Shown here: one piece after another, positions 58,358 through 58,984 of the stretch | Position numbering within the stretch: the first letter of the stretch is position 1 | Layout of the letters: the number at the start of each line of letters is the position of its first letter | NCBI GenBank assembly: GCA_011391015.1 | Contig: JAABRH010000004.1 | Span: 1-62,005 of the forward strand | Direction of reading: 5' to 3' | DNA: 62,005 bases | Origin: Sulfurovum sp. | GTDB lineage: Bacteria > Campylobacterota > Campylobacteria > Campylobacterales > Sulfurovaceae | Translations under genes and position numbers: made by a program | Notes under the pieces: model-generated | The model's database searches: none | Seen by the model: the letters and a program-made list of their open reading frames with translations, nothing else | Told to the model about the DNA's origin: nothing

Positions 58358-58480
58358 AAGACAAGCCTAGTTTTTGTGTATTCTAGCCTATTAAGTGTTA
58401 GAAGTTCCACACAGGTATTTTTCAGAATATCAAACTTTCTTATATAAATCTGACATTTTTTTGTTATCATTTCTTATGAA

Positions 58481-58556
58481 TAAGACAAAGCCAAACTATC
58501 TGTGAAGGTAGGACGGAAAGCCACGGATCTCTTTAATAGACCGCCGGGTTGCTCAA
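58481..58556 (+). ncRNA. Cyclic di-GMP-I (GEMM-I) riboswitch
   Basis: Pattern match to GEMM-I: GCCAAAC, hairpin CTATCT-GTGA-AGGTAG with a GNRA tetraloop (58496-58511), GGACGGAAAGCC, P2 stem CGG(A)TCT/AGACCG (58524-58543) and CCGGGTTGC. P1 pairs GACAA (58484-58488) with TTG(C)TC (58549-58554). By alignment to the Vibrio Vc2 RNA, the ligand-contacting G20 is 58490 and A47 is 58517. The 21-46 pair is C-G here instead of G-C, a compensatory change. Retention of G20 argues for c-di-GMP and not cGAMP. Confidence 0.85.
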
Positions 58557-58606
58557 TTTAGTCACCCTCAACGGTGATTGAAACCTCAATGAAAGGGCGA
58601 GCAATG
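58549..58606 (+). promoter_or_regulatory. Predicted expression platform: P1 strand versus start-site helix
   Basis: TTGCTC (58549-58554), the 3' strand of riboswitch P1, is perfectly complementary to GAGCAA (58599-58604), which sits between the AAAGGG Shine-Dalgarno and the ATG and includes the A of the start codon. A small hairpin TCACC/GGTGA (58562-58577) lies within the alternative helix. Ligand binding would hold P1 and free the start, giving a translational ON switch. Confidence 0.55.
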
Positions 58607-58984
58607 ATAATCCAACATACAATTCATCCACATATCGAACGAACACCCAAAGAAAAAGCTATTGTAACGTATAAATTTTCTCAAAAGAATGTAGCATATA
58701 GCGATGCACCTCTTTTTTTCCCTGAAGGGTATGAGAACATATTTTTACTACTGTATTTTGTTACACTGCCTTATATTGCAGGATTTTTATTTTTGTTTTT
58801 GTATGTCTCCAAGGCAAATATTGACGTATTTCTAGCTGTCTATAAAAATTCATTTTTTATTTTGACATGGGCGATAGGGTATGAGATCATCGCAGCTCTT
58901 GCCCTTCTTTGGATTGCAAAAATGGCAATAGGATTTGGAAAACAGGATTTGCTCTCCAGCCAAAAGCCGTTTCGTAGACCCTAA
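58604..58984 (+). CDS. Unknown three-helix membrane protein under riboswitch control
   Basis: 126 residues from the ATG at 58604 (AAAGGG 6 bp upstream). In-frame upstream GTG (58574) and ATG (58589) lie in the riboswitch tail and have weaker context. A basic/polar N-terminus (about 40 residues, IERTPKEKAIVTYKFSQ) is followed by hydrophobic helices NIFLLLYFVTLPYIAGFLFLFLYV, NSFFILTWAIGYEIIAALALLWIAKM. Not recognised as a family. Convergent with uvrA, 5 bp between stops. c-di-GMP control suggests a role in attachment, biofilm or surface change. Confidence 0.75.
   Translation: MIIQHTIHPHIERTPKEKAIVTYKFSQKNVAYSDAPLFFPEGYENIFLLLYFVTLPYIAGFLFLFLYVSKANIDVFLAVYKNSFFILTWAIGYEIIAALALLWIAKMAIGFGKQDLLSSQKPFRRP

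Follow-up and report, generated by a model that had tools for sequence, protein, structure and literature searches.

A stretch of 62,005 nucleotides from a Sulfurovum genome (contig JAABRH010000004.1, hereafter the window) contains a complete and genuine GEMM-I (c-di-GMP-I) aptamer at positions 58481-58557(+), an ordinary member of a well-known class. In our judgment it is very probably the sensor of a c-di-GMP-I riboswitch located at the extreme 5' end of a short leader, where it would control how a small membrane protein with two helices is translated. Aptamers of this class are abundant in the genus, with up to 21 copies per genome.

Identity and architecture of the aptamer

In an Infernal search against Rfam, the element was the sole RNA above the cut-offs in the whole window. 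Two families of the same clan claim it: c-di-GMP-I (RF01051), with 58.4 bits against a cut-off of 35, and c-di-GMP-I-GGC (RF03167), with 59.3 bits, barely over its cut-off of 59 (E 1.8e-11). A first-pass annotation, made by reading the sequence alone, had placed a GEMM-I riboswitch at 58481-58556 and proposed the RF01051 search; the match bears out both the class and the coordinates. The blocks it had described (GNRA-capped P1b, AAAGCC, P2 and the receptor side) could all be located, and GGACGGAAAG and a UUGC block with C92 as its last base are also present.

Position numbers are those of Vc2 of Vibrio cholerae (RF01051), which we assigned from our own reading of the Vc2 sequence; they agree with the contacts given in PMC4744006. 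The AAAGCC block (58487-58492, +) holds G20 (58490), placed by alignment to the Rfam consensus and Vc2 and retained as the first-pass annotation had stated, followed by C21 and C22 (58491..58492), which pair with G46 (58516) and G45 (58515). A stem capped by a GUGA loop (58496..58511, +), which is P2 of Vc2 and had been named P1b in the first-pass annotation, is followed by C44 (58514), by G45, G46 and A47 (58515..58517, +) and by P3, a short form of the tetraloop-receptor helix (58519..58550, +). C92, which pairs one guanine of c-di-GMP, is at 58552. The three c-di-GMP contacts, G20, A47 and C92 (PMC4744006), are thus all in place (58490 G, 58517 A, 58552 C), as are the GNRA loop and the interhelical C44-G83 pair (58514 C, 58543 G), which is universal in GEMM (PMC4744006).

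The element shares with Vc2 its architecture, the three ligand contacts, the GNRA loop with its receptor stem and the C44-G83 pair. It differs in having C21-G46 where Vc2 has G-C, a GUGA instead of a GAAA loop, a short P3 and a weak P1. The last of these counts against the element: the P1 helix that can be drawn is partly mismatched or non-canonical, with non-standard pairs marked in the Rfam alignment. Class and ligand are nonetheless well supported, and G20, A47 and C92 point to c-di-GMP as the most likely ligand.

Covariation among relatives

We aligned 97 relatives from the family and order of the window's genome with MAFFT, with no fitting to a structure. The 18-pair GEMM-I fold was 97.6% paired in this alignment, compared to 86.4% in shuffles, with two-sided changes at 13 of the 18 pairs, and none of 500 shuffles reached the observed value on any of the five measures. 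The helix formed by C21 and C22 was 99.5% paired, with two-sided changes, which also occurred at each of the six pairs of the GUGA-capped stem; in the ten pairs of P3, 97.3% of cells were paired. A47 (97/97) and both bases of C44-G83 are invariant, while G20 is kept in 96 and C92 in 93 of the 97 sequences. Pair 21-46 was C-G in 93 sequences, G-C in two and U-A in one, and pair 22-45 was C-G in 83 and U-A in 11. The compensatory change is therefore genuine on both junction pairs.

The junction pair C21-G46

The first-pass annotation had singled out C21-G46 as a compensatory covariation relative to Vc2. The pair is indeed C-G and the two-sided change is real, but the form is not special: 171 of 188 pattern-defined cores from the same phylum have C21-G46 and three have G-C, where several of the cores with neither are misregistered or chance pattern matches. 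At pair 22-45, the same 188 cores have C-G in 156 and U-A in 18 cases. A scan of 84,980 genomes gave at least 114 DNA stretches with the C21-G46 form, spread over many phyla; among the matches listed are Desulfobacterota, Acidobacteria and Clostridiales as well as Methylomonas, Nitrosospira, Vibrio jasicida, Photobacterium, Geobacter, Sulfurovum, Sulfurimonas and Sulfuricurvum. When positions 21 and 46 were left free in viral contigs, the GEMM-like matches comprised, by our reading, about 13 with G-C and 8 with C-G. Given its frequency in the phylum and its presence in many other taxa, C21-G46 is neither rare nor private to the window element; the swap is a true, widespread covariation and the normal form in Campylobacterota relatives.

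Variants of GEMM-I that prefer 3',3'-cGAMP (GEMM-Ib) reportedly carry A20, as described by Kellenberger 2015 and Nelson 2015. Their existence (PMC7266159), together with a junction pair flipped relative to Vc2, could suggest that the window aptamer too prefers a cyclic dinucleotide other than c-di-GMP. As the element keeps G20 and does not have the A20 of GEMM-Ib, and the flipped pair is a frequent form across many phyla, we consider this very unlikely. We are equally doubtful that the short-P3 form with C21-G46, dominant in Campylobacterota, makes up a functional subclass that differs in ligand selectivity or affinity (tuned, for instance, to pGpG or to a cyclic dinucleotide other than c-di-GMP) and that the GGC label of Rfam mirrors this.

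The GGC label

This label is the best Rfam assignment for 21 of 23 elements from 20 loci. Judging from the RF03167 consensus, "GGC" would stand for bases 20, 47 and 92. The window element resembles this family in its overall fold and short P3, and RF03167 is its top-scoring family, which would be expected of a variant class with a different ligand preference. The G47 of the RF03167 consensus (ACGCGAA), however, is absent: the window and all 97 aligned relatives have A47, and the RF01051 score is close behind (58.4 versus 59.3 bits). Membership in the variant class is thus highly improbable. By its residues the element reads as a canonical c-di-GMP-I aptamer, and the shared short P3 has plausibly raised the RF03167 score. 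Automatic annotation by best Rfam score would mislabel most Sulfurovum elements (the window and loci L001-L024) as c-di-GMP-I-GGC.

The probable target gene

Located between polA and uvrA, the aptamer immediately precedes a gene (58604..58984, +) for a 126-residue two-helix membrane protein with conserved LFFPxGxE and WAIGYE motifs. Its start is the ATG at 58604; in the closest orthologue (L265), the in-frame ATG of 58589 is not kept, whereas AAAGGGCGAGCAAUG, with the Shine-Dalgarno-like AAAGGG (58592..58597, +), is. Searches of Pfam, NCBIfam and PHROGs with the protein gave no match. Homologues occur in 81 of 150 genomes of the family, with invariant residues Y51, P56, G60, F63, F65, G92, Y93 and E94, and an AlphaFold model shows two long helices at low global confidence (pTM 0.40).

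Other Sulfurovum genomes also have the gene next to polA and uvrA. In about ten relatives a riboswitch is found 38-119 nt upstream of it, and ten distinct cores precede the gene family, so the linkage of riboswitch and gene is conserved in relatives; in other relatives with the gene, our pattern did not find an upstream riboswitch.

Leader and expression platform

A likely promoter -10 element, TATCAT (58465..58470, +), would place the transcript start at about 58477, just before the aptamer. Scanning the region upstream of the window aptamer with the sigma-70 consensus revealed no full promoter. In 178 relatives, TATAAT-like hexamers are most frequent 26-30 nt ahead of G20 (52 compared to about 20 per 5-nt bin).

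Downstream of the aptamer, the minimum free energy (MFE) fold has a 10-bp hairpin (58557..58582, +) as part of the expression platform, which is also present in an orthologue of 83% identity, with a C-G to A-U exchange. The hairpin region (58550-58584) looks like a CRISPR repeat with ATTGAAAC at its end. At 25.3 bits against a cut-off of 45, this match to RF01366 was rejected; since the repeat-like sequence occurs only once in the genome and has not been retained in the orthologue, the resemblance is probably due to chance.

The 3' strand of the aptamer, GUUGCUC (58548..58554, +), includes C92 and can pair with GAGCAAU (58599..58605, +), which overlaps the start codon. This duplex of 7 bp has an energy of -9.9 kcal/mol; among unrelated leaders, 0.8% pair equally well. 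The MFE fold of the leader includes most of the duplex. In our computations, the start codon became more accessible (0.69 instead of 0.41) when C92 and the junction bases were reserved for the ligand, which cost about 3.4 kcal/mol. The folding energy of the leader as a whole is unremarkable (z -1.5), and no terminator-like site was found between aptamer and gene in the window leader.

These features suggest the following mechanism. Without c-di-GMP, GUUGCUC would pair with GAGCAAU and block initiation. In the bound form, C92 would pair with a ligand guanine, A47 would stack between the ligand bases and the GUGA loop would dock on P3; with C92 claimed by c-di-GMP, the start codon would be freed and the membrane protein made. 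An alternative fold that captures the ligand-pairing cytosine is established for the GEMM-I switches Cd1 of C. difficile and pilM of G. metallireducens (PMC9262584). Those two act on transcription terminators, whereas the partner strand in the window is the start-codon region.

Both ON and OFF switches are known for GEMM-I (PMC9262584), and c-di-GMP might instead lower expression of the membrane protein, through an OFF switch or transcription termination. The start-codon duplex is not shown by other platforms of the family, which leaves room for this reading. The duplex recurs with identical sequence in L056; in L062 it has G-U changes, and in L058 (UUACUC/GAGUAA) a G-C pair is exchanged for A-U. 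It is unconvincing in L057, L059, L061 and L070, and for four of ten orthologous leaders, 18-56% of unrelated leaders pair equally well. As a general rule, pairing of the C92 strand with the ribosome-binding site or start was unsupported, with observed energies over 132 leaders equal to shuffled ones. In the window, however, ligand and start codon compete for one strand, which favors ON, and the leader is without a terminator-like site; we therefore regard OFF control or termination as unlikely, albeit a serious alternative. A translational ON switch, a logic that we infer from the competition, the strength of the duplex, the gain in accessibility and the lack of a terminator-like site, is probable to a modest degree.

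Abundance in Sulfurovum and its relatives

The first-pass annotation had doubted that GEMM-I is prominent in Campylobacterota and had suspected a wider c-di-GMP regulon. The doubt holds for the phylum, where a sample of 397 genomes had GEMM-I in only 43, but not for the Sulfurovum family, where 85 of 150 genomes have it; the class is thus prominent in the family and patchy over the phylum. Nearly every genome of the genus has matches (51 of 53), with as many as 21 in one genome. The suspicion of a wider regulon proved well founded, as the window's genome (1.74 Mb, 85% complete) contains four aptamers: the one described here and those at L001, before a small membrane protein, at L002, before a DUF4382 lipoprotein, and at L004, before a PAS-domain protein. 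Five GGDEF domains over the cut-off in this genome also count for the c-di-GMP reading.

Of these four, only the aptamer at L001 (region 552-1090, -) has the Vc2-like G21-C46. The L001 membrane protein shows weak similarity to that of the window (32% over 68 residues, E 4e-06 for the pair) and is possibly its paralogue.

The genes downstream of 179 cores belong to many families. Among these, the largest appear to be surface or secreted-looking proteins, DUF4382 lipoproteins and PAS-domain proteins, where the cluster names are in part our own reading of the sequences. Such families are the usual GEMM mix.

We also found 18 same-strand pairs of aptamers within 350 nt of each other, several of them near-identical between genomes. 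Tandem aptamers occur at L238 and other loci of the window's family, one of which has a run of three spaced 103 nt apart. The tandem arrangement is known for the class (PMC12452182). At L002, the intact GEMM-I element (1500-1577) that precedes the DUF4382 lipoprotein gene has a degenerate tandem partner about 75 nt upstream (1653-1728, -): a second, decayed aptamer that scores 15.5 bits, carries G47 (GGACGCGAA) and has its junction broken.

The decayed L002 partner shows that decay happens in the window's genome, and one could ask whether the window element is itself a decayed or chance aptamer-like sequence. Its intact ligand contacts and junction pairs, its E-value and its conserved gene linkage make the probability of this negligible.

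Significance

Sulfurovum and its relatives are widespread sulfur oxidizers of vents and sediments. Individually, the window element is ordinary; collectively, it belongs to a large c-di-GMP-I regulon in Sulfurovum and relatives, some of it in tandem, of which we found no description in the searchable literature. The new points are modest: the abundance of the class in Sulfurovum, its conserved pairing with an uncharacterized membrane protein and the problem with the Rfam label.
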